Positions 4,551-21,272 of a stretch of DNA of 21,366 bases are shown here, in pieces. Under the pieces are notes generated by a model. That model did not search any database, was not told the origin of the DNA, and was given only the letters and a program-made list of their open reading frames with translations. The first letter of the stretch is position 1. Each line of letters begins with the position of its first letter. The DNA lies in the IMG/VR virus record IMGVR_UViG_3300042731_005296, positions 1 to 21,366 of that record; one strand, written 5' to 3'. This DNA comes from a virus. The position numbers and the translations under genes were made by a program.

Positions 4551-5297
4551 TTACAATAAAATGTTGTATTTTCGTATATTACTTTCATCTTCCTCAAAAT
4601 ACAATGGGGCATTTTCATCGTGATAAGAATTATTTTTTCTTGTTTGTATTATCTTGTCTTTTAGAGTATTTTCCCATGAGATTGAATTCTTTTGCGGTTC
4701 AAGACCATCGATATCGTAAACAGCAGAATCCGTGTTAGCCTTGGCCCAATCACGGGTGAAAAATCCTATATCATAGCCATCCAAAAGATACGGAGAGTAG
4801 AGAGCAGACCCAACAGTAACAATATCATTGGCGTATTGTTGAAAATAATTTTCAAATTTTGGCTTAAATGCCACCTCTGCAAAACTAAATCCACCAGAAC
4901 CTTTTGCTATTTCTGCATCCTTAAACTTCTTTGTTATATAAGCATATCCAACACGAGACACAAGCGTTCGGTCTGGGTACACTATAGCAAAACCAGACGT
5001 ACCCATAGCGTCATTGAGAGTTTTATATTTGGAAGAATATAAAATTAGATTATCATATTCAAAAGTTTTTGGTATTTGCCAAAGTCTGGGATTTTGTAAG
5101 AACAATAAAAATTTTAGATATTCGCTAACCTGTTTTTTCCACAAGGCATAGTTTTTATTTTTCTTTCCATTTTCCAAAAACTCTTTGGGTGCGATTTGTG
5201 GTAGCGCAGGTGGATACCTACCTCGCTGAGAAGCATATTTTTTTTCATGCGCCTCCCAATATTGAGGCTTCATAAAAGGTGGTAATTTAGACGCCAT
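4551..5297 (-). CDS. Unassigned baseplate-operon protein (248 aa)
   Basis: I do not recognise a family. The protein is soluble, rich in aromatic and lysine residues, with a Pro/Tyr-rich N-terminus (LPPFMKPQYWEAHEKKYAS, then RGRYPPALP) and an acidic C-terminus (FEEDESNIRKYNILL). No signal peptide, membrane segment or catalytic motif is visible. The frame could begin at a TTG at 5303, but the ATG at 5297 lies two bases after the stop of the upstream 784-aa gene and is the simpler coupled start; neither has a good ribosome site. Its place between the 784-aa structural protein and gp25 argues for a baseplate or tail component. Confidence 0.75.
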   Translation of the reverse strand: MASKLPPFMKPQYWEAHEKKYASQRGRYPPALPQIAPKEFLENGKKNKNYALWKKQVSEYLKFLLFLQNPRLWQIPKTFEYDNLILYSSKYKTLNDAMGTSGFAIVYPDRTLVSRVGYAYITKKFKDAEIAKGSGGFSFAEVAFKPKFENYFQQYANDIVTVGSALYSPYLLDGYDIGFFTRDWAKANTDSAVYDIDGLEPQKNSISWENTLKDKIIQTRKNNSYHDENAPLYFEEDESNIRKYNILL

Positions 5298-5299
5298 AA

Positions 5300-7654
5300 T
5301 CAATAATCACTATTCTGACTTGCTGAAAAATAGAGACGCACTCCTACACCCAGTTGTGCATTTATGGCTGGGTCATAATCATTAAGTTCCTGTTCTATTT
5401 CGTTGAAGCCGTTTACGAGAGCATTATAGAAACCCCCAGCGGATGGCGCTATTTCAAATTCAATTCTTGGTCCTTGACCTAATGGGTCAATGGGTTTAGT
5501 TGTTCCACCTACAATTTTCATCGAAACACCATTCCTGAATTTCCCGTTTGAATCAAACAGATCTCCTCCATAATAGAGAGAACCACTTCCTGTTCCCGCT
5601 TTGTATCTTTGTAGGTACAAACTTTTTAGATAAACAAGCATCGTTGAATACCCATAGTCTGCTCCCTTGTTAATCTCCAGCATATAACCACTATTAGCAT
5701 TTATGAAAGCAGAAGGATCAAAATCGAACCCTAACTGGATCATTAGATTACCATTTGTTTTATAATACATAGCGACAAGAGTCCAATTTGCTGTGCCTGC
5801 CTCTATTCTCTCTGAGCCATTAGGTCTTTGTAGCTCAAACATGCTACTGTTTGACTGATTCCAATCTACACTATTATGTCCATAACCCACACCAATTACT
5901 TTGGTTTCTGCGCCATCATTAATATTGTCTTGTTGAATATAATTAATGAGGGCGGGTGCAAGCTCGGGTCCAGAATACTTAATGACGGGCATAAGTCTAA
6001 CATTCGCCCAACCTGTATCGCCCCAAGAAGGCCACAAAAAATAGATACTTGTAAAATCTGTTCTTGTTGCTGTACTGGTATCTGGCTCCCAATCATCATC
6101 ATACTGTGTCCAATCAACAGCACCAGTACCGCCACCGTCAAGATCTGCCCAATCTGGTCTGGTTCCTGTTTCTTCTTCAATGAGATCGGCAATCTTGTCC
6201 ATCACAGACGGTTCGCCAGCAACGTCCTCGCCAGCGACAGCAACCCCAGAAAAGGTTGGTTGCGTAATAACGTTGGTAATCGTGGCACCCGCTTGACTAG
6301 AATTGTTTTCATAATTTGTCCCAATTTCTGGAAAGGTTAAATTATAATTATCAGCAGGTAGAAGTCTTTTAAATAGGCCAGATTCTAACTTAAATTCTGG
6401 AATCTCTGTATACCCATTGCCAACATCAATAAGGAAAGCGTGAAGGACTTTGTAGCTGTATGCTGAACCCAATGCGGCGTCTCTTTGCAGATAACACATT
6501 GCTGTTGCAGTTCTTTTTGATGTTGAAGACACTGTTGGAGAAGAAACAAGCAATTGATACCACCCAGCGGCCTGATCAAGCGTATGAGTTTCCTGACCAT
6601 CGGTTCCTGGGTCGCCATCTATCTCATTAGGGACAGCTTCTATGTGTCCTGCATTTGTTATAGTCATCGCCCATTTTCCGCTTCTGTGTTCCAAAAGTTC
6701 CGTATAATTTTGCGGCTGATAACTTGGGTCTGCTTCCATATACAAAGTACCCGCTGGCAAAGCAGGCTCACCCGTATCATCTGGGGGATCAAGACGGTCT
6801 TCATTTGACTTGACCGTAGTCACAAGCTCTGAGATTGATTTGGTTTTTACATCGCTAGAAGAAAAATCAGTGAGATCAGCAATAAAATCTGCCGCTTTAT
6901 TGTAAGATGATGTTAGGTTTGTAATCTCTTTGGAGAGCAAATTTTTTGCCGTTCCAGAGGGAAGCATGTTTTTGACGCTATTGATAACATCGCTAGAAGG
7001 ATCACCACCAACAAGTAATCGTAGGCTTGCTGGTGCTGTTAGCATCTTATCTACTTGCAACAACTTTGATTGAGCATTTGCAACAACATCATTTGCAGTG
7101 TCAAGAATATCATTAATACCAATTTCGGGGAATTCTATCGGCAGTGCTTTTTCTAGAGAACTTCCATCTGGTAGTATGGAAACATTTGGCAAAATATCAC
7201 ACAACATCTTTGGTGTAATGTCACCAGTTTGTAAAACATCTACAAGCTTCGTTAAATCAATTCCATACTCAGTCATTTTTTCTGCATATTTTCCTTGCAA
7301 CAAATCCATATCATCTGCAAACTTGAGAAGGGCGGCGGTTTTTTCTAATGGGTCCAAACCTGGTTGACTCAAAACATTTTCTAATGTTTTTACTTTGTCA
7401 AACACCTCATCCAATAAAGAGGGGGGAGAAATACCAGACACCGTTGAAGAAAACGCATCAGCCTTTACCATCAAGCCAGTGTTTTGAGCAATCATAGTAC
7501 TTGCAACATTGCCAACCAGACTAGCAAGGGTTGACGCATCTGCGTTTTGAAGTTGTGTCGCCAGCGTTTGCGCTTGTACACCCAATGCTTCTACCTCATC
7601 AAAGAGTGCACCGAGTTCTTCGCCTAATCCGCATGGAGATGGTATCTTACTCAT
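5300..7654 (-). CDS. Large unassigned tail/baseplate structural protein (784 aa)
   Basis: The product has two distinct parts. Residues 1 to about 285 are helical and Leu/Ala/Asp-rich (for example LGVQAQTLATQLQNADAST), with features of a virion scaffold or attachment domain. From about 290 to the end it is beta-rich, with many Trp, Tyr, Gly and Asn residues, an acidic Asp/Gly/Trp stretch near 515-545, and a 560-700 segment whose strand pattern could be a jelly-roll or lectin-like fold (inference only). A C-terminal block near 735-784 (RIEFEIAPSAGGFYNALVNG) closes the chain. The ATG shares its A with the PAAR stop (TAATG), with GGTAGG just upstream. Directly after the spike and tip genes, it is probably a baseplate-associated or receptor-facing protein. 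Confidence 0.8.
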   Translation of the reverse strand: MSKIPSPCGLGEELGALFDEVEALGVQAQTLATQLQNADASTLASLVGNVASTMIAQNTGLMVKADAFSSTVSGISPPSLLDEVFDKVKTLENVLSQPGLDPLEKTAALLKFADDMDLLQGKYAEKMTEYGIDLTKLVDVLQTGDITPKMLCDILPNVSILPDGSSLEKALPIEFPEIGINDILDTANDVVANAQSKLLQVDKMLTAPASLRLLVGGDPSSDVINSVKNMLPSGTAKNLLSKEITNLTSSYNKAADFIADLTDFSSSDVKTKSISELVTTVKSNEDRLDPPDDTGEPALPAGTLYMEADPSYQPQNYTELLEHRSGKWAMTITNAGHIEAVPNEIDGDPGTDGQETHTLDQAAGWYQLLVSSPTVSSTSKRTATAMCYLQRDAALGSAYSYKVLHAFLIDVGNGYTEIPEFKLESGLFKRLLPADNYNLTFPEIGTNYENNSSQAGATITNVITQPTFSGVAVAGEDVAGEPSVMDKIADLIEEETGTRPDWADLDGGGTGAVDWTQYDDDWEPDTSTATRTDFTSIYFLWPSWGDTGWANVRLMPVIKYSGPELAPALINYIQQDNINDGAETKVIGVGYGHNSVDWNQSNSSMFELQRPNGSERIEAGTANWTLVAMYYKTNGNLMIQLGFDFDPSAFINANSGYMLEINKGADYGYSTMLVYLKSLYLQRYKAGTGSGSLYYGGDLFDSNGKFRNGVSMKIVGGTTKPIDPLGQGPRIEFEIAPSAGGFYNALVNGFNEIEQELNDYDPAINAQLGVGVRLYFSASQNSDY

Positions 7655-7919: not shown

Positions 7920-9263
7920 CTACTTGTTCAGATCGATCTGCTTGCCTTTGATATCAACATTGTTACTTGCGCCAACAACAACATCTTTTCCAGCACCAAG
8001 AGCAATATTTTTACCAGAGGCTACAGTATACCCGTCAATTCCAATCACATTACAAGCTTTAATTACGGTCTTGGTTGCACTTCCGTTTACGGTTTCTGAA
8101 GTATCACCAGTTACTTGTGTATCTTTTTTGCCCTGTAGAATATGCAACTGATCGCCACCAATTGTTTCATGGTCCTTGCCACCAATGCGAGTGCCACGTG
8201 CACCTTCGACAATGTAAGACTGATCACCCTTGACTTCTAAAATGTGATTTCCTTCTACGTGTGTTACATGATCGCCCTTGACCGTGGTAACAAGATCACC
8301 TTCCACCTCTTGTATTGCATTTCCTTTTACATAAATTCTAGACGTACCTTGTACAGTGACATCCATATCACCTTTAACGAAAAGCTTTTTGTCTTTTACG
8401 ACAACTTCATAATCGTCGCCAACAACTTTTACAGTGCGCTTTCCATCTGCCTGTATTTCTTGATACGTACCAGACTTGTGATATGTGTGAATTCTTTCGT
8501 TGTTTGGAGTGTCATCAACTTCAAAGACATGACCGCTCTCTGTTTCTCTTACATTGTTGTAAGGATACCTAGAATTAATTGCTTCTTGATCAGTAGCGGT
8601 ATAATCACGATCACCAAAGTCATCGCCAAAGCGAGCGTTTGGCTCAGACCAATAACTCTTTGGATCACCATCCGTTCTTACGTATTCGATGGTGTCTTTC
8701 TTCGCCCTAGATATAACCTCTTGTGCAATAGCCCGTGGTATGTCTTCTAGGCGAGTGTCCTGTTTGTTAATAAAGCTGTGGTGGCTTTCTGCCGCCTCGC
8801 CTCTTGCAAGACGCGACACATCTGGTTCACCATTGCCTTGTATTGCATCATCGCCGTAGTCTGAAGCATCAGACGTTGTTCTTGGATATTTTTGAAAGGG
8901 GTCACCAAATCCTTCATCAGAACTAAATGCGGCAACCGATCCATCAAACGGAAGACCACCAATCGATCCTAAAATTATTGGTTGCTGTCCATCTTCCCCG
9001 TCTGCAAAAAAGCCCATGACAATAGAGCCTTCTACCAATCCTGTTGGTGACTCACCAATGCCGTTCATCAATGAACTTGTTGTGGGTTGAACGGGAACTG
9101 CCCACGGCAAATGCTCTGTGGGTAATATGTCCTTTCTGGGTGTGTGATAACCCATCACGCGCACCTTAACGCGACCCATTTGTGACGGATCTGATCTAGC
9201 TTCTACAACACCGATGAACCAGTAAAAATCTGGAACTTCAAAATTATTTTTTACAAGTGCCAT
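7920..9263 (-). CDS. 5: Baseplate central spike protein gp5-like, lacking the lysozyme domain
   Basis: This is the trimeric central spike, equivalent to T4 gp5 and VgrG. Residues about 12-105 form the OB-fold that binds the gp27 hub (FIGVVEARSDPSQMGRVKVR, then LPWAVPV, GSIVMGFFADGEDGQQPIILG). A polar linker spans about 110-235. From about 243 (SGHVFEVDDTPNNERIHTYH) the C-terminus is a triple-stranded beta-helix with repeated VxGD and VEG turns, as in VgrG. The length is 447 residues against 575 for T4 gp5, and the glycoside hydrolase domain that T4 carries between the OB-fold and helix is missing. GGAG lies eight bases upstream of the ATG. gp27-like is upstream and the PAAR tip downstream. 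Confidence 0.92.
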   Translation of the reverse strand: MALVKNNFEVPDFYWFIGVVEARSDPSQMGRVKVRVMGYHTPRKDILPTEHLPWAVPVQPTTSSLMNGIGESPTGLVEGSIVMGFFADGEDGQQPIILGSIGGLPFDGSVAAFSSDEGFGDPFQKYPRTTSDASDYGDDAIQGNGEPDVSRLARGEAAESHHSFINKQDTRLEDIPRAIAQEVISRAKKDTIEYVRTDGDPKSYWSEPNARFGDDFGDRDYTATDQEAINSRYPYNNVRETESGHVFEVDDTPNNERIHTYHKSGTYQEIQADGKRTVKVVGDDYEVVVKDKKLFVKGDMDVTVQGTSRIYVKGNAIQEVEGDLVTTVKGDHVTHVEGNHILEVKGDQSYIVEGARGTRIGGKDHETIGGDQLHILQGKKDTQVTGDTSETVNGSATKTVIKACNVIGIDGYTVASGKNIALGAGKDVVVGASNNVDIKGKQIDLNK

Positions 9264-12475: not shown

Positions 12476-12483
12476 TATTTATA
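12476..12483 (-). promoter_or_regulatory. Late promoter of the minus-strand baseplate operon
   Basis: The minus strand reads TATAAATA, the exact T4 late octamer. With standard spacing +1 falls at 12470, giving a 29-base leader that contains AAGG (12455-12452) before the gp48 ATG. The right-hand base of the octamer is the A of the divergent gp4 start codon, so promoter and gp4 start overlap. Confidence 0.75.
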
Positions 12484-12932
12484 TGGTTTATCGCAAAGAT
12501 TTACACCAAGGACGGTTTATACCACAAAATATTTCCAAATATATTGGCGATTCTCAGAATATTTTCTATCGTTCTGGATATGAACTTAAATTTATGAAGT
12601 GGTGTGACAAAAATCCAGCAGTCCTAGAGTGGGGGTCAGAAGAAATAGTTATCCCATATCGGTCCCCACTTGACAACAGAGTTCATCGATATTTTGTAGA
12701 TTTTTATATAAAAATACAAGAAAAGAATGGTGTAGTGTCCAAATATCTCGTTGAAGTAAAACCATCTCGTTTTGCACAAGAACCCAAAATACCCAAAAGA
12801 AAAACCAAACGCTTTATTGAAGAAGTCAAGCAGTGGGGAGTCAATCAGTCTAAGTGGAAAAGCGCAAAAGAATTTTGTGCAGATCGTGGCTGGAAGTTTA
12901 TAATTGTAACCGAAAAGGAACTTGGCTTATAA
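12483..12932 (+). CDS. 4: Head completion nuclease gp4-like
   Basis: This is a homologue of T4 gp4 (historically 50/65), required to finish DNA-filled heads before tail joining. Recognisable blocks are QGRFIPQNISKYIGD, IFYRSGYELKFMKWCDKNP, VLEWGSEEIVIPYRSPLD and HRYFVDFYI. It has a TnsA/PD-(D/E)xK-type nuclease core with E34, D73 and E91-V-K93 in the expected order. At 149 residues it is the usual size. The only suitable ATG (12483) has no Shine-Dalgarno sequence and lies inside the divergent late promoter; its own promoter is not clear (the nearest candidate is a weak TATATAAG at 12441-12448). It opens the plus-strand virion-assembly operon. Confidence 0.9.
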   Translation: MVYRKDLHQGRFIPQNISKYIGDSQNIFYRSGYELKFMKWCDKNPAVLEWGSEEIVIPYRSPLDNRVHRYFVDFYIKIQEKNGVVSKYLVEVKPSRFAQEPKIPKRKTKRFIEEVKQWGVNQSKWKSAKEFCADRGWKFIIVTEKELGL

Positions 12933-14080: not shown

Positions 14081-14770
14081 ATGTCATTACCACAGATTAT
14101 GCACCCGAAGTTTGAAATTGAAATACCTTCAACAAAAGAAATTTTTGAAGCAAGACCGTTTTTGGTTAAAGAAGAAAAGATTTTGATCATGGCAAATAGC
14201 TCAGACGATTCAAAAGAAATGATTCGGGCATGTGCACAGATTGTGACCAATTGCACGTTTGGAAACTTAGATGCATCTAAGCTGACAATTTTTGATTTGC
14301 AACATGTGTTCCTACAAATTAAGTGTGAGGCATCTGGATCAAAACAGGACTTTACTTTGACGTGTGGTGCATGTGACGACACGATTGATTATCAACTAGA
14401 TTTAAAATCCCTTGAAATTAAAAACCTAGAAAATGTAAATAATAATAAAATCAAGGCAGATGAATCAACAGTTTTGTTTTTACAATATCCAAATGCAATG
14501 GATCTTGTGCGGCACGATGATGATGAAACAATGTTGGTGGCATCTGCAATAAAAGAAATTCACCATCATGACGAAGTGTTTACACTAGAGAATGAAACAA
14601 TCGAAGAGATTTTAAGTTTTATTGATAACCTTCCAATCACTGCGCTGGATCAAATTAAAGAATTCTTTTTGAATTCACCGTATATGGAACACATAGTTGA
14701 ATACACATGTAAGGGTTGTGACAAGAGTAACGTTGTCTCAATTAATGGGTACGAAAATTTTTTCGCTTAA
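14081..14770 (+). CDS. 26: Baseplate hub assembly protein gp26-like (tail assembly chaperone role)
   Basis: The 229-residue protein matches the T4 gp26 family (208 residues), needed for hub assembly but not a major part of the finished tail. The N-terminus LPSTKE-like IPSTKEIFEARPFLVKEEKI is the characteristic block. Two CxxC pairs, C95/C98 and C210/C213, could bind one zinc; this is inference. AAGGAG precedes the ATG. The last codons read GAA AAT TTT TTC GCT TAA, two overlapping canonical -1 slippery heptamers just before the stop, so a fraction of ribosomes may continue into the gp51-like frame and make a 287-residue fusion. It is followed by the tape-measure candidate, the normal position of tail assembly chaperones. 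Confidence 0.85.
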   Translation: MSLPQIMHPKFEIEIPSTKEIFEARPFLVKEEKILIMANSSDDSKEMIRACAQIVTNCTFGNLDASKLTIFDLQHVFLQIKCEASGSKQDFTLTCGACDDTIDYQLDLKSLEIKNLENVNNNKIKADESTVLFLQYPNAMDLVRHDDDETMLVASAIKEIHHHDEVFTLENETIEEILSFIDNLPITALDQIKEFFLNSPYMEHIVEYTCKGCDKSNVVSINGYENFFA

Positions 14771-14795
14771 CTCTTTCTCAAGATAGCTTGGAGAA
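14755..14795 (+). promoter_or_regulatory. Candidate programmed -1 ribosomal frameshift signal
   Basis: In the gp26 frame the heptamers A-AAT-TTT (14755-14761) and T-TTT-TTC (14758-14764) are both of X-XXY-YYZ form. The zero-frame stop is 14768-14770. A hairpin follows ten bases after the second heptamer: TTCTCAAG (14775-14782) pairs with CTTgGAGAA (14787-14795) across loop ATAG, eight pairs with one bulged G. Slipping at either heptamer gives the same protein. No measured efficiency is available. Confidence 0.6.
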
Positions 14796-14943
14796 CTTTT
14801 TTAAAACAAATTTTTTACTGGTTCATGAACACAACTACTCAGTAGAATCAATAGAAAATATGATACCTTGGGAAAGAGAAGTTACAGTAAACATGTTGTT
14901 AACGCATTTAAGAAACAAGGCAGAAAAAAATAAGTTAAGGTAA
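14764..14943 (+). CDS. gp51/gpT-like C-terminal frame, reached by -1 frameshift or an internal TTG start
   Basis: This short frame lies -1 relative to gp26 and is open from 14746 to the TAA at 14941-14943. It encodes SLENFFKTNFLLVHEHNYS, then IENMIPWEREVTVNMLL, a conserved-looking domain like the C-terminal (T) parts of frameshifted tail assembly chaperones and short gp51-like proteins next to gp26. It has no convincing own start: the first candidates are a TTG at 14788 with little ribosome site and an ATG at 14860 that would cut the domain in half. By frameshift it adds 59 residues to residue 228 of gp26. Its end holds the AAGG for the tape-measure gene, which begins four bases after the stop. 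Confidence 0.65.
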   Translation, partial: RLTLSQDSLENFFKTNFLLVHEHNYSVESIENMIPWEREVTVNMLLTHLRNKAEKNKLR

Positions 14944-14947
14944 AAAA

Positions 14948-17251
14948 ATGGCCGAAGAAAATAATAATAATGTAGGCGAAATTGCTGGATCAATCAAAGC
15001 TGGTCTGTCACCCACACGTGGGATGACGCGAACTAGCACCAGCACTGTTGCCTCACTGTCTTCTTCTTTTCAAAGCAACATCTCCCAAAACCAACAAGGC
15101 TTTGATGATCTTATAGAATCAAATGCCTCGTTTTCTTCTTCCGTAGAATCATTTGCAGAGACATTGAAAAAAGTTTCTGAAATGAACAGAAAGGAATTTA
15201 ACGATCAACGAACTGCCCTTGTAAAAGCCATTGAAGAAATGAAACAAGCGGGTGGTGAAGATAACAAAGAATTGGTAGAAAAGCTCACTGAAGGATTGCA
15301 AGATAAGGCAATGGGTACGGAAGGTGGGCGGCTCCGCAGTATGTACGATACTGGTATGAGCAAGATGAAAGAGGCGTCGAACGTAGATCAAGACGCTGGG
15401 TTTGTAGAGGGAATGAAACAGGCATTTTCCCCAGAAAGAATGTTTCCTAAATTATTTGGTAAAGATTTTCAAGCAAGTCAAGCTACAACTGGTGTTAAAG
15501 TAAAAGGTTCAATCGGTTTTGGTAGCGGTGTTGATCGTGAAACACCAGCCGAAAAACAAACAGAACTATTACAAGATATTCTAGAGTCACTACACCGAAT
15601 AGAGGGCAACGGTGGCATGGCTGGTGGCGGTGGTGGTCTTGGTCTTCCTTCAAGAAAGCCAAATTTAAGGCCAGGTAAAAATCCACCAAAGACAACACCA
15701 AAGGCTACTCCACAAACTAAGGCTCCACCAAAGCCGCCTGTACAGCCACCCAAACCTCCTGTACAGCCACCTAAGCCTTCACTGGCGCAAAAGGCTGGTG
15801 ATGGTGGTAAGAAACTTTTGTCAAACGCAAAAGGTCTTGGTAAGGGGCTTGCAAGGGGTGCCAAATTTATTCCAGGTGTTGGTTTACTGGCGGCGGCTGG
15901 TATGGGAGTCTATGATGGCATACAAGGCGCAGGAAACGCCGCTGAGACATTTGGGCTAGAAGAGGGGGAAGAGGCTTCATTCGGTCAAAAAGCCGCTGGT
16001 GCGGCTGGTGGAGTACTCAGCGGTCTCACATTTGGTTTGGCAGATGGCGATAAAATGGCTAAAGGTCTGTATGGATTCTTTGGTGGTGATGACGATTCAC
16101 CAGAAGAAATGCAAAAGCGTGGCATGGAGATACCGCGTCAAGGGCAGACTGCGGATTCTAGCGGAATCATGATCGATAAGGATGGCAATATTACAAATGA
16201 AGATATTGCGATGGCGGGAGTTGAAGCAGAAGACGTTCAGAAATATGTCGATGAAGGCATGGACGAAAGAGACGCTATTAGACAAGCAAACATGGATCAA
16301 AGCTTTGGTAAGCGTGGCAAGACAATTGGCAGTGCAACAGACAGCGCAAATCTAAGCGAGAAAGGTGCGGCGGCTGTGGCGAATCTCAAGGGCGATGGCG
16401 TCCCAGAAGTAAACCCAGAAACGGGTAAGAGAGGCAAGGTCATTGGAAGTGCTGTTTCTAACAACTCAGCAAAAAATGTTGACATGGACGCCTACGGTAA
16501 AGCATTTGATCAGATAAAAGAAAAAGAAGCTGAATTAGAGGCCATTGGAGATCTGTCTGGTGCTGGTCAGCGAGAAATGAATTCACCAGAGTTTAAAGAA
16601 AAGAGAGAAAGACAAAAGGCACTGAAAGCAGAGATTGCACAACTCTTTAAAGAAATGGATGCCGCAATGGGCGAGACCCCAGAAAAAGAAGCGGCATTTG
16701 ATGCGTTACTTGATGCAGACGATGATGATTTCTATGCAGAAACACCCGTGAAAGGAAACGCAAAAGTAACAACAACTAGAACTGAAACTGGTGGTGGATC
16801 AATTACTACTTTTGCTGATAAGAAAGTTGATACGGAAGAGAGCAAAGCGCTTAGGGCAGAAGCAGAAAGTGTGGAAGGACAAAAAGATGCACTCATACAG
16901 CAGATGAAAGATTCTGGGTTGCAAGGCGGTGCACTGCTAGACGCAATGATGGACAGCCCAGAATATCAAGATCTACAGCTAAAAGTCAAACAATTGAAAG
17001 CGGCGGCAGAGGCGGCGATGGGGTCATTGCCACAAGATCCCATCATTGAAGCGGGTAAAAATGTGTCATCAACAATTGTTGAGGGTGCTACTGCGGATGC
17101 GGCTCAAGGTCAAGCGCCAACTATCATCAACAATAATCAATCTGCACCACCAGCCGCACCACAGAAACAAGCTCCCGTGATTGTAACAACACCGATTGGC
17201 GTGAGGAATAATGATTCTAGCGCAAGAGATAATGCGTCAAGAGTCTGGTGA
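14948..17251 (+). CDS. Probable tape-measure / gp29-like tail length protein (767 aa)
   Basis: I infer a tape-measure role (T4 gp29, 590 residues) from position and build rather than a certain family match. Directly upstream are the gp26 and gp51-like chaperone frames, mirroring G/T-H order. Domains: Ser/Gln-rich N-terminus (1-65), a helical, coiled-coil-like stretch (about 65-125), a Gly run and a Pro/Lys hinge (240-278), then hydrophobic segments KFIPGVGLLAAAGMGVYDG (about 306-324) and AAGAAGGVLSGLTFGL (about 349-364), which suit a tape measure that meets the host membrane. GKRGKTIGSA and GKRGKVIGSA form an internal repeat 40 residues apart. Long charged helices follow (about 505-575, 625-690), and a Pro/Gln/Asn-rich tail ends in SRVW. 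AAGG sits seven bases before the ATG. Confidence 0.65.
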   Translation: MAEENNNNVGEIAGSIKAGLSPTRGMTRTSTSTVASLSSSFQSNISQNQQGFDDLIESNASFSSSVESFAETLKKVSEMNRKEFNDQRTALVKAIEEMKQAGGEDNKELVEKLTEGLQDKAMGTEGGRLRSMYDTGMSKMKEASNVDQDAGFVEGMKQAFSPERMFPKLFGKDFQASQATTGVKVKGSIGFGSGVDRETPAEKQTELLQDILESLHRIEGNGGMAGGGGGLGLPSRKPNLRPGKNPPKTTPKATPQTKAPPKPPVQPPKPPVQPPKPSLAQKAGDGGKKLLSNAKGLGKGLARGAKFIPGVGLLAAAGMGVYDGIQGAGNAAETFGLEEGEEASFGQKAAGAAGGVLSGLTFGLADGDKMAKGLYGFFGGDDDSPEEMQKRGMEIPRQGQTADSSGIMIDKDGNITNEDIAMAGVEAEDVQKYVDEGMDERDAIRQANMDQSFGKRGKTIGSATDSANLSEKGAAAVANLKGDGVPEVNPETGKRGKVIGSAVSNNSAKNVDMDAYGKAFDQIKEKEAELEAIGDLSGAGQREMNSPEFKEKRERQKALKAEIAQLFKEMDAAMGETPEKEAAFDALLDADDDDFYAETPVKGNAKVTTTRTETGGGSITTFADKKVDTEESKALRAEAESVEGQKDALIQQMKDSGLQGGALLDAMMDSPEYQDLQLKVKQLKAAAEAAMGSLPQDPIIEAGKNVSSTIVEGATADAAQGQAPTIINNNQSAPPAAPQKQAPVIVTTPIGVRNNDSSARDNASRVW
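15731..15778 (+). repeat. 21-bp tandem repeat coding a Pro/Lys hinge
   Basis: Two full 21-base units (15731-15751 and 15752-15772) and a partial third encode KPPVQPP repeats at residues 262-277 of the tape-measure candidate. The sharing of the CCTGTACAGCCACC core suggests recent duplication. It probably makes an extended, flexible linker. Confidence 0.85.
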
Positions 17252-17488: not shown

Positions 17489-17932
17489 ATGGATCGAAAA
17501 AGGGTTTTTGAACAGCTTAAAATCGATGAAGGCGTTGTATATGAAGTATATCTGGATCACCTTGGATATCCAACTTTTGGGGTTGGTCACCTTGTAACAG
17601 AGAAAGATCCAGAGCATGGTGCAGAAGTTGGTACGCCCATCTCAGAAGAAAGAGTTGAAGAGTGTTTTGAGAAAGATCTTGACGTGTCTATCTCAGAGTG
17701 TAGAGCGCTCTATGGAGAAACCTTTGATCAATGGCCCGACGAAGTACAAGAAGTTCTTGTCAACATGATGTTTAACATGGGTCGAAGTAGACTTGGTGGA
17801 TTCAGAAACTTTAGAAAAGCCCTTGAAGAAGCTGATTGGAAACAAGCCGCAATTGAAGGTCGTGATTCAAAGTGGCATAAACAAGTTACAAATCGTGCAG
17901 AGAGATTAATGTCCCGTCTTGAAAAAGTATGA
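17489..17932 (+). CDS. T4-type lysozyme (glycoside hydrolase family 24)
   Basis: This is a muramidase that cleaves the beta-1,4 bond of peptidoglycan. The catalytic triad of T4 lysozyme (E11, D20, T26) maps to E14, D23 and T29 in KIDEGVVYEVYLDHLGYPTFGVGHL-type context. Further conserved parts are VLVNMMFNMG (about 90-99), GGFRNF, and the C-terminal NRAERLMS helix. It has 147 residues against 164 in T4 e, ending early by about one helix. No signal peptide is present, so export needs a holin or delivery in the virion. AAGGAG and a near-consensus late promoter are upstream. The spike protein in this phage lacks a lysozyme domain, so this enzyme could be the endolysin, a tail-associated lysozyme, or both. 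Confidence 0.93.
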   Translation: MDRKRVFEQLKIDEGVVYEVYLDHLGYPTFGVGHLVTEKDPEHGAEVGTPISEERVEECFEKDLDVSISECRALYGETFDQWPDEVQEVLVNMMFNMGRSRLGGFRNFRKALEEADWKQAAIEGRDSKWHKQVTNRAERLMSRLEKV

Positions 17933-18735: not shown

Positions 18736-19755
18736 TTACTGACAGACGTAAAGACCGTCTGCATTTGGGCTACAAGTGATTGGATCAGCCAATTCCGCGC
18801 CAAGCAAATCAATACTATTCTGCATATCTGCAATAATAGAAGTGTAGTTAGTTCCCTGTGAATCAAGAATATTCATACCAGTAGTACTAACTGTGCTTAC
18901 AGCGTCGATGCCAGTAGTCCCGAGCGTAGTAAGATTGGTCATACCAGTAGTGCCGAGTGTGGCAAGATTGGTCATGCCAGCAATACCGACAGTTTCAATG
19001 TTATCCATGCCGATCTGTGCAGTAGCACCAATCTGTGCCATACCAGCAACACCAACAGCGCCAACAGTGTTAATTCCTGTAGTTGCAACCGAATCAACCG
19101 TAGTAAACCCTGTAGTTGCAACCGAATCAACCGTTGCAAAACCTAAGCCAGCAATAGTTGTGTTTGCGTCAAAGCCAGCACCAGCAATACTATCGGCAGT
19201 ACCTAGACCAGCAATAGCGACATCAGCAGTTTGACCACCAGCAGTGTTCAACGCATCAAAGCCAGCCATAGCCACTTCAATTGCACCACCACCAGCAGTA
19301 GCCGCCGCGTCAGCCCATGAGCTACCAAGATTGGTAACCATGTTCTGTTGACCCAATTGAATTGCTTCATTGGACGCGAAGCTTGCCATCTGGATATCTT
19401 TGGAGTTGTCACTAGCATTCATAGAGACTGCCGCTTGAATGGCTCCAAGACCAAGAGTGCTTACTGCGGGAGTCAAAACTTGCGCCCACTTAAGAGCAGA
19501 AGATTCGACATATTGAGGAGCTACCACTTTTTCTTGCGTGAGTGCAATAGCCATAACTGCCGCTGTTGCCGCACCTGGATCAGAAGACCCAGCAAGTTGT
19601 GATAGGGCGAGAAACTTTGCCTCTTGTGCACGACTTGCATTTTCTGCCGCCGCCGCCATTGCCACGTAGTAATCCTGTGCCGCTTGATTACCCGCACATG
19701 CGGTGGTGGTGAAAAGCAGTACTGTGCACGTGCAAAGTGCTTTCAGTAGTTTCAT
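18736..19755 (-). CDS. Secreted (probable lipo-) protein with 11-residue repeats
   Basis: No known family. Residues 1-21 form a signal peptide (KLLKALCTCTVLLFTTTACAG); a Cys at about 20 after TTA could be a lipidation site, though the -3 residue is not the usual Leu. Residues 25-160 are Ala-rich and probably helical. Residues 183-303 are eleven in-phase repeats of 11 residues with pattern G-hydrophobic-x-x-hydrophobic-x-x-hydrophobic-x-x-x, for example GFTTVDSVATT and GMTNLATLGTT. The C-terminus has two Cys (TCSPNADGLYVC) that could pair outside the cytoplasm. AAAGGTG lies before the ATG, which overlaps the radical SAM stop as ATGA. A dedicated terminator ends the unit. Export in the infected cell, or a place on the virion, are both possible. 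Confidence 0.85.
   Translation of the reverse strand: MKLLKALCTCTVLLFTTTACAGNQAAQDYYVAMAAAAENASRAQEAKFLALSQLAGSSDPGAATAAVMAIALTQEKVVAPQYVESSALKWAQVLTPAVSTLGLGAIQAAVSMNASDNSKDIQMASFASNEAIQLGQQNMVTNLGSSWADAAATAGGGAIEVAMAGFDALNTAGGQTADVAIAGLGTADSIAGAGFDANTTIAGLGFATVDSVATTGFTTVDSVATTGINTVGAVGVAGMAQIGATAQIGMDNIETVGIAGMTNLATLGTTGMTNLTTLGTTGIDAVSTVSTTGMNILDSQGTNYTSIIADMQNSIDLLGAELADPITCSPNADGLYVCQ
18847..19209 (-). repeat. 33-bp repeat array coding eleven 11-residue units
   Basis: The array codes residues 183-303 of the secreted protein. Neighbouring units can be nearly identical at DNA level: a 26-base identical stretch occurs at 19076-19101 and 19109-19134, and 18911-18943 closely matches 18944-18976. 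The 33-base period points to growth by tandem duplication with selection for frame. Confidence 0.9.
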
Positions 19756-21272
19756 GATGTTTCACCTTTGTTAGTTAACGTTAACTTCTTCACTTTGTAC
19801 TCATAAATAAATCGATTTATGTTTTCTCTCCTTTCGGGGCCAAGAGAACTGCCCATTAACATCGTCCATGATACATCTGGATCAATGAAAAACTTGTCAA
19901 ATGTAAATGGATCTATATTATTATACTTATATATAGCATCCGTGTCAAACTCATTCGCACAAAACTGTATGGCATCAACAATGGTAATATTACCATTATC
20001 CCATCCAATATAACCGTATTCCTTGTTTTTGAGTATGTGATCCAGCTTTTCATAGTAATTGCTGTATTTTGAATTTATTTGTAAATCAGTTGGGTACTCA
20101 AATTCTTTGTAACCGTAGTCTTTCCATGACTTGTCGAACTTAGAAAAATGTGTCAACTCATGAACGGGCGAATCAAAATCCTTGATCATTAAAGTATTCA
20201 TGACACAAGAATTCTTATACCAGTACTTGTGTATCCAAGATACGCTTTCTCTAAGACTTTCAAGCGTCTCATGTGGCAAACCCGCAATGAGCGATATGTG
20301 ACCCTTGTAATAGCCAGCATTCTTTCTAAAGTATTCATCAACTTCAAGCAATCCGTCTTGAAGCTTGGCTGTGTTCATTCCTTTGCCGATTGCTTTTGCA
20401 GATGCATTGTTGAAGGATTCTACCCCATAAAAGTGTGAGCAGAAGCCCATGTCGATGAGATTGTCCCAATCCTTGGGGCGAGACACTAAAAGATCTGCGC
20501 GAATGTATCCAGTGAGTTTTGGTTGAAAGGGAAGTTTCCTAATCACTTTCGCATACTTTGCGATTTTTTCACTGGAGTCATTAAAAGTTTCATCAAGCAC
20601 GATGTAATGTTCCGTGCCATGTTTCTCATAGTTACTCAACAACTCATCATACAAATTGTCTGCGGATCGTGTGTGGTCTTCTTTTACACCCAGCACTGGA
20701 AATGAACAAAACGCACATTCAAACTTACACCCACGTGAAAACTCTAACAGTAATATTTCGCGGTCAGAGATATGGTCTCTTTCTTGATATCGTACTGTAA
20801 GATCAGACTTTGGAAATGCTCTGTAATTATCGTAGCAATTGATAATTCGATTTGTGTGTGTTGGCTCTTTGCCACCTTGGAAATATTGTAGCAACTCTAG
20901 AATGGCGTATTCACCAAATCCAAAAATCATCCAATCACAACCAAGACCAATCATGGAATTGTTCTGACTGCCAGATACCGTGGGAATGGATGGATAAGTT
21001 TTTCTCAACCATTGTACAAACTCGTTTACAACGGGAGATTCTATGGTGAAGGTAGAACTGAATCCAAAGAATATCGTGTCCACATGAACGCGAGACATTG
21101 TGTATGTCTGTAATTCTTCAAGTGTCCAAGCGTGAATATAGTCGAGAACTTCAATGTCGTAATGATGTTCTCTGAGGAAAGTGGCAATTTTGTGTGCACC
21201 GATAGAGCGACGAATACTGATATCGTCACCTATCATGTTCTCTCGTAAACCGCCGAAAATTAAACCATGCAT
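19752..21272 (-). CDS. B12-binding-type radical SAM enzyme
   Basis: The 506-residue protein has a radical SAM core with the iron-sulfur cluster motif C182-x3-C186-x2-C189 (SRGCKFECAFC), a following YIVLDETFN strand (about 223-231), and YGVESF and GHISLIAGLPHET blocks seen in the class. The N-terminal 140 residues, with IGAHKIATFLREHHYDIEVLDY and a later GFGEYAILELL, fit the Rossmann-like B12-binding domain; the classic DxHxxG base-off motif is not visible, as is common in this class. The substrate is unknown. Its TGA overlaps the ATG of the repeat protein, so the two are co-expressed. The ATG at 21272 has no good ribosome site. Methylation or another radical reaction on a nucleic acid, glycan or peptide cannot be decided here. 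Confidence 0.9.
   Translation of the reverse strand: MHGLIFGGLRENMIGDDISIRRSIGAHKIATFLREHHYDIEVLDYIHAWTLEELQTYTMSRVHVDTIFFGFSSTFTIESPVVNEFVQWLRKTYPSIPTVSGSQNNSMIGLGCDWMIFGFGEYAILELLQYFQGGKEPTHTNRIINCYDNYRAFPKSDLTVRYQERDHISDREILLLEFSRGCKFECAFCSFPVLGVKEDHTRSADNLYDELLSNYEKHGTEHYIVLDETFNDSSEKIAKYAKVIRKLPFQPKLTGYIRADLLVSRPKDWDNLIDMGFCSHFYGVESFNNASAKAIGKGMNTAKLQDGLLEVDEYFRKNAGYYKGHISLIAGLPHETLESLRESVSWIHKYWYKNSCVMNTLMIKDFDSPVHELTHFSKFDKSWKDYGYKEFEYPTDLQINSKYSNYYEKLDHILKNKEYGYIGWDNGNITIVDAIQFCANEFDTDAIYKYNNIDPFTFDKFFIDPDVSWTMLMGSSLGPERRENINRFIYEYKVKKLTLTNKGETS

Follow-up and report, generated by a model that had tools for sequence, protein, structure and literature searches.

A candidate programmed −1 frameshift in the tail assembly chaperone gene of a divergent marine T4-like phage

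The end of a gp26-like gene in a fragment of a marine T4-like phage (IMG/VR virus record IMGVR_UViG_3300042731_005296, positions 1 to 21,366; this 21-kb stretch of 21,366 nucleotides is the window) very probably carries a programmed −1 ribosomal frameshift site, U_UUU_UUC, at which the gp26-like frame would be joined to a gp51-like frame. The gene ends GAA AAT TTT TTC GCT TAA, and the two overlapping in-frame heptamers and the stop one codon beyond them, as given in an original prediction made from the letters of the window, are where it placed them, in sequence, frame and coordinates alike (Table 1). The majority of ribosomes would stop at the end of gp26 and so release a short chaperone of 229 amino acids (aa). 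A minority would slip one base back, their P- and A-site tRNAs re-pairing on UUU UUU, and, bypassing the UAA one codon on, would yield a fusion of ~287 aa with the gp51-like domain; the predicted slip-spanning peptide of that fusion contains GYENFFRLTLSQ.

Tail assembly chaperones of the G/GT class have short and long products, of which the short is in excess; they bind the tape measure and the tube, and are absent from the virion. Phage lambda G/GT and P2 E/E' each comprise a short form and a −1 frameshifted long form encoded just before the tape measure, and the gene order of the window is similar. With its open −1 frame, conserved C-terminal domain and no need of a start of its own, the window's gene is best read as belonging to this class, as had been proposed. 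On the model of lambda G/GT, coating of the tape-measure protein would fall to the short form, and an extra contact made by the long form would bring in tail tube or hub parts.

Is this new for T4 gp26/gp51, as the original prediction suggested? In T4-like phages these proteins were identified as the tail assembly chaperones by Vladimirov, Gautam and Davidson in 2022 (Virology 566:9-15), who reportedly found frameshifting kept in several groups and T4 using genes 26 and 51. Because of that report the finding, though correct, was already explained, and the principle is not new; the window is a new and divergent marine case of it, to which are added here counts over 93 loci, a free seventh base and tests of stimulators. 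G-T frameshifting, Atkins et al. had written in 2016, is conserved widely among phages with long tails ‘except T4’ (PMC5009743). A passage of the PRFect paper cites the 2022 work for T4-like phages that do without the frameshift and have a short chaperone gene beside a fused long one (PMC10885494), and the passages citing it in two papers bear out the frameshift at poly-T as well as the two-gene solution in T4-like phages (PMC10885494, PMC12846349). Chaperones of the Vandenendeviridae and Andersonviridae, families other than that of the window phage and like it as far as their description goes, have a GTTTTT slip (PMC12846349).

Conservation of the slip site and of the −1 frame

An initial scan for relatives with a single protein as query gave no matches. 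Through a motif near the protein start, which introduces no bias for the junction, 80 IMG/VR loci were found, and junctions were also read in 17 annotated isolates where gp51 follows gp26, phages of Synechococcus, Prochlorococcus, Pelagibacter, Caulobacter, Sinorhizobium, Agrobacterium, Vibrio, Aeromonas, Cronobacter, Xanthomonas, Stenotrophomonas, Pseudomonas and Acidovorax. Removal of near-duplicates left 93 loci (75 from IMG/VR, the 17 isolates and the window), which are related by descent, so that counts over them are not counts of independent events.

In all 93, the end of gp26 holds T_TTT_TT[C/T/A]. Its first six bases are invariant and the seventh varies (C in 58, T in 29, A in 6); Rhizobium phage RL38J1, outside the 93, has T_TTT_TTG, the only site seen to end in G. 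(The record of that phage opens inside the gp26 gene, at positions 1-260, and the gene is split over the record ends.) The codon before the slip always ends in T, being GAT, AGT, AAT, TCT, CAT, GCT, GGT or ACT among relatives, the T run is of 6 bases in 64 loci, 7 in 22 and 8 in 7, and everywhere the zero-frame stop comes 0-3 sense codons after the slip. The other heptamer of the window, A_AAT_TTT, stems from an AAT codon that its phage shares with some others, and only T_TTT_TTN is family-wide.

How unusual is such spelling? The first slip Phe is always TTT, in genes whose bodies overall contain 712 TTT and 337 TTC. Elsewhere in the same genes just 2 of 73 Phe-Phe pairs are spelt T_TTT_TT[CT], and 12 of 21,473 codon positions there hold an in-frame T_TTT_TT[ACT], which puts the 93/93 at the slip site far above chance. 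The joint synonymous-codon probability is ~10^-45 on the assumption of independent loci, a figure that overstates the case because the loci share ancestry. Six relatives have TTA as the second slip codon, which changes the zero-frame Phe to Leu with slippage still possible; that the seventh base is free even when the zero-frame residue changes is what is expected of a ribosomal slip site, and not of a Phe-Phe motif.

At every locus, except where the contig ends first, the −1 frame stays open and encodes the same domain, and conservation of its protein starts at the slip (FRI-x-LSH-x-x-L...HHKYSLTELENMxPWERxIY). The window's −1 protein, in which a conserved-looking domain had been predicted, matches PHROG 634, ‘baseplate hub assembly catalyst’ (E 2e-22), and also the C-terminal end of PHROG 150, positions 230-276 (E 4e-9), the gp26-like protein itself matching Pfam PF12322 T4_baseplate (E 3e-45) and PHROG 150 (E 5e-50). 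AlphaFold2 models give the gp26-like protein a pLDDT of 94.5, with gp26-like or unnamed viral proteins as nearest folds, and the −1 part a small helical domain (pLDDT 86). Searches of the PDB by sequence and by fold yielded no relative of either part: for the gp26-like model there was no PDB match at E below 0.001, and for the −1 domain no telling one. A good start for the −1 frame was correctly said to be lacking, as the sole common start codon near its front in the window is a TTG at codon 8, with no ribosome-binding site. The fusion is thus strongly supported by comparison with related T4-like phages: slip site and frame relation are kept in 93/93 loci, the −1 frame is open and both domains have homologues.

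Table 1. Features of the junction and of the gene downstream (window coordinates)
Feature	Position	Strand	Remark
gp26-like gene, short form of the tail assembly chaperone (TAC-N)	14081..14770	+	229 aa
Overlapping heptamer A_AAT_TTT, zero frame	14755..14761	+	not kept across the family
Slippery heptamer T_TTT_TTC, zero frame	14758..14764	+	position and phase identical in all 93 non-redundant loci
−1 frame, gp51-like C-terminal domain of the predicted long form (TAC-C)	14761..14943	+	open to a TAA ending at 14943; fusion predicted, ~287 aa
Zero-frame stop TAA	14768..14770	+	one sense codon (GCT) between slip site and stop
Weak hairpin	~14774..14794	+	−5.1 kcal/mol; z 0.03 to −0.46 against dinucleotide shuffles
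767-aa gene directly downstream, putative tape measure	14948..17251	+	by position only

Two paralogous genes in the T4 group

In the T4 group, gp26 and gp51 are paralogues, the short form and the long form respectively. Both match PF12322 in RB51 and in MX01, where gp51 consists of a gp26-like part and the C-terminal domain in one frame. By profile comparison with the T4-type phage RB51, the window's gp26-like protein matches gp26 (E 1e-20) and the N part of gp51 (E 2e-8), while the −1 domain matches gp51 residues 200-242 (E 2e-6), a match that begins, at residue 200, exactly at the slip Phe. The T4_baseplate domain and the gp51-type C-terminal domain that mark the T4 gp26/gp51 family are therefore both present in the window. 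The pairing of gp26-like with gp51-like in the original prediction stands insofar as both parts are homologous to those of the T4 group, and needs amending in that gp51 there is the long form and not the −1 domain alone.

T_TTT_TTN is absent from gp26 of T4, RB51 and MX01, and from the gp51 junction of RB51 and MX01; in T4 and RB51 gp26 ends ...GLKEFF-ELL with the FF spelt TTC TTT. A separate gp51 without the heptamer, which had been named as the observation that would count against a frameshift, is thus confined to T4 and near relatives, but gp51 there is a full-length fused copy and the two-gene form is the equivalent of the frameshift. The window, with one gene and a −1 extension, does not share that arrangement within its 21 kb, a fragment that would not show a second copy elsewhere in the phage. 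A divergent gp26/gp51 gene pair as in T4 is found in Acinetobacter phage Morttis and Aeromonas phage avDM4. In Cronobacter phage leN (locus positions 1234-2527) the long (gp51) and short (gp26) genes stand in tandem with an 8-base overlap, in contrast to the divergent T4 pair, and this tandem is possibly nearer to the original duplication.

One gene would accordingly suffice for a short and a long tail chaperone across T4-like phages of cyanobacteria, Pelagibacter and alpha-, beta- and gammaproteobacteria, whereas T4 and the phages close to it employ two. In public records the second part mostly figures as a ‘hub assembly catalyst’ of its own or, as in S-H9-1, Aeh1, S13 and ACP17, is overlooked, and therefore annotation could be corrected in bulk by a T_TTT_TTN rule.

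Stimulators and other explanations

The hairpin that had been predicted downstream of the slip site does exist in the window, and it is not above chance (z 0 to −0.5 against dinucleotide shuffles); as a frameshift stimulator it is not supported, since it folds like shuffled sequence. No downstream structure common to the family was found over the 93 loci, and in the 50 bases after the slip the family mean z is a modest −0.78, with 22% of loci below −2 (control offsets, −0.38 to +0.27). In some lineages a hairpin is real, with strong examples directly after the stop in S-PM2 (a 14-pair stem, z ~−6.4), P-SSM2 (z −4.1) and MED4-213 (z −3.5), and structure of this kind is thus lineage-specific. 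Over the 20 bases upstream of the slip, Shine-Dalgarno-like pairing is stronger than under synonymous recoding in 67/93 loci and is absent or reversed at control positions, though kinship of the loci makes the p-value of this test too small. The pattern of stimulators, then, is a downstream hairpin in the three phages named, a Shine-Dalgarno-like stretch in many, and neither clearly in the window. It is a tentative thought, and one we would not bet on, that an invariant U6 slip combined with stimulators that change between lineages (hairpin, upstream Shine-Dalgarno-like stretch, or neither) lets exchangeable parts around a fixed core tune, or maintain, the ratio of short to long form.

What, then, weighs against a programmed frameshift in the window? 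It has no significant downstream hairpin by dinucleotide shuffles, and its upstream Shine-Dalgarno-like stretch is weak (−3.8 kcal/mol). Compared by profile, the −1 domain resembled neither lambda T nor P2 E', though the single-sequence targets make this a weak test. Further, 27/93 loci (~29%) have an ATG, GTG or TTG no more than 7 codons after the slip, and in those the second part could be translated separately; some phages may also make it alone.

These starts belong to the alternative that survives best, improbable as it is: that gp51 is a separate small protein, made by translational coupling or reinitiation just past the gp26 stop, which is how it is annotated in S-PM2, P-SSM2, S-RIM32 and others. 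Such a scheme leaves the invariant heptamer unexplained. Moreover, the opening 15 codons of the −1 frame contain no ATG, GTG or TTG in 37/93 loci, any start lies behind conserved residues, and the gp51 of the T4 group is itself a fusion. More improbable still is slippage of transcription on the T run, with mRNAs of altered frame as the result. The site is indeed a T run, but runs of 6-8 bases are short for polymerase slippage, and the codon phase is fixed while the seventh base is free. Least probable of all, and already contradicted by the spelling statistics, is that the run merely reflects a conserved Phe-Phe in AT-rich genomes: gp26 does have a conserved GL-x-x-FF end, T4 included, but six relatives encode Phe-Leu, other Phe-Phe pairs are seldom so spelt, and gp26 of T4 and RB51 keeps FF yet spells it otherwise.

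Neighbouring genes

The rest of the window holds T4-like baseplate, neck and tail genes. Position points to the 767-aa gene directly downstream of the frameshift candidate as the putative tape-measure gene; its protein matched no tape-measure family and had no clear similarity to the annotated tape measures of HTVC008M or Cr30. Past it lies a separate small lysozyme gene (17489-17932, +) that matches the lysozyme part of PHROG 430, and the gp5-like hub protein (7920-9263, −) has OB and C-terminal trimer domains and no lysozyme domain match. The gp4-like head closure protein (12483-12932, +) has a match to the TnsA-like endonuclease domain PF08722 as well (E 2e-23). Between the gp25-like and PAAR-like genes, at 4551-7654 (−), are two genes, of 250 aa with a TTG start and of 784 aa, with no match in Pfam or PHROG. 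Towards the end of the window, 18736-19755 (−) encodes a lipoprotein-like product with no Pfam match, an N-terminal signal-like stretch and many degenerate TVDSVATTG-type repeats, and 19752-21272 (−), which overlaps its neighbour by 4 bases, encodes a 506-aa radical SAM protein (PF04055, E 5e-11; no PHROG match).
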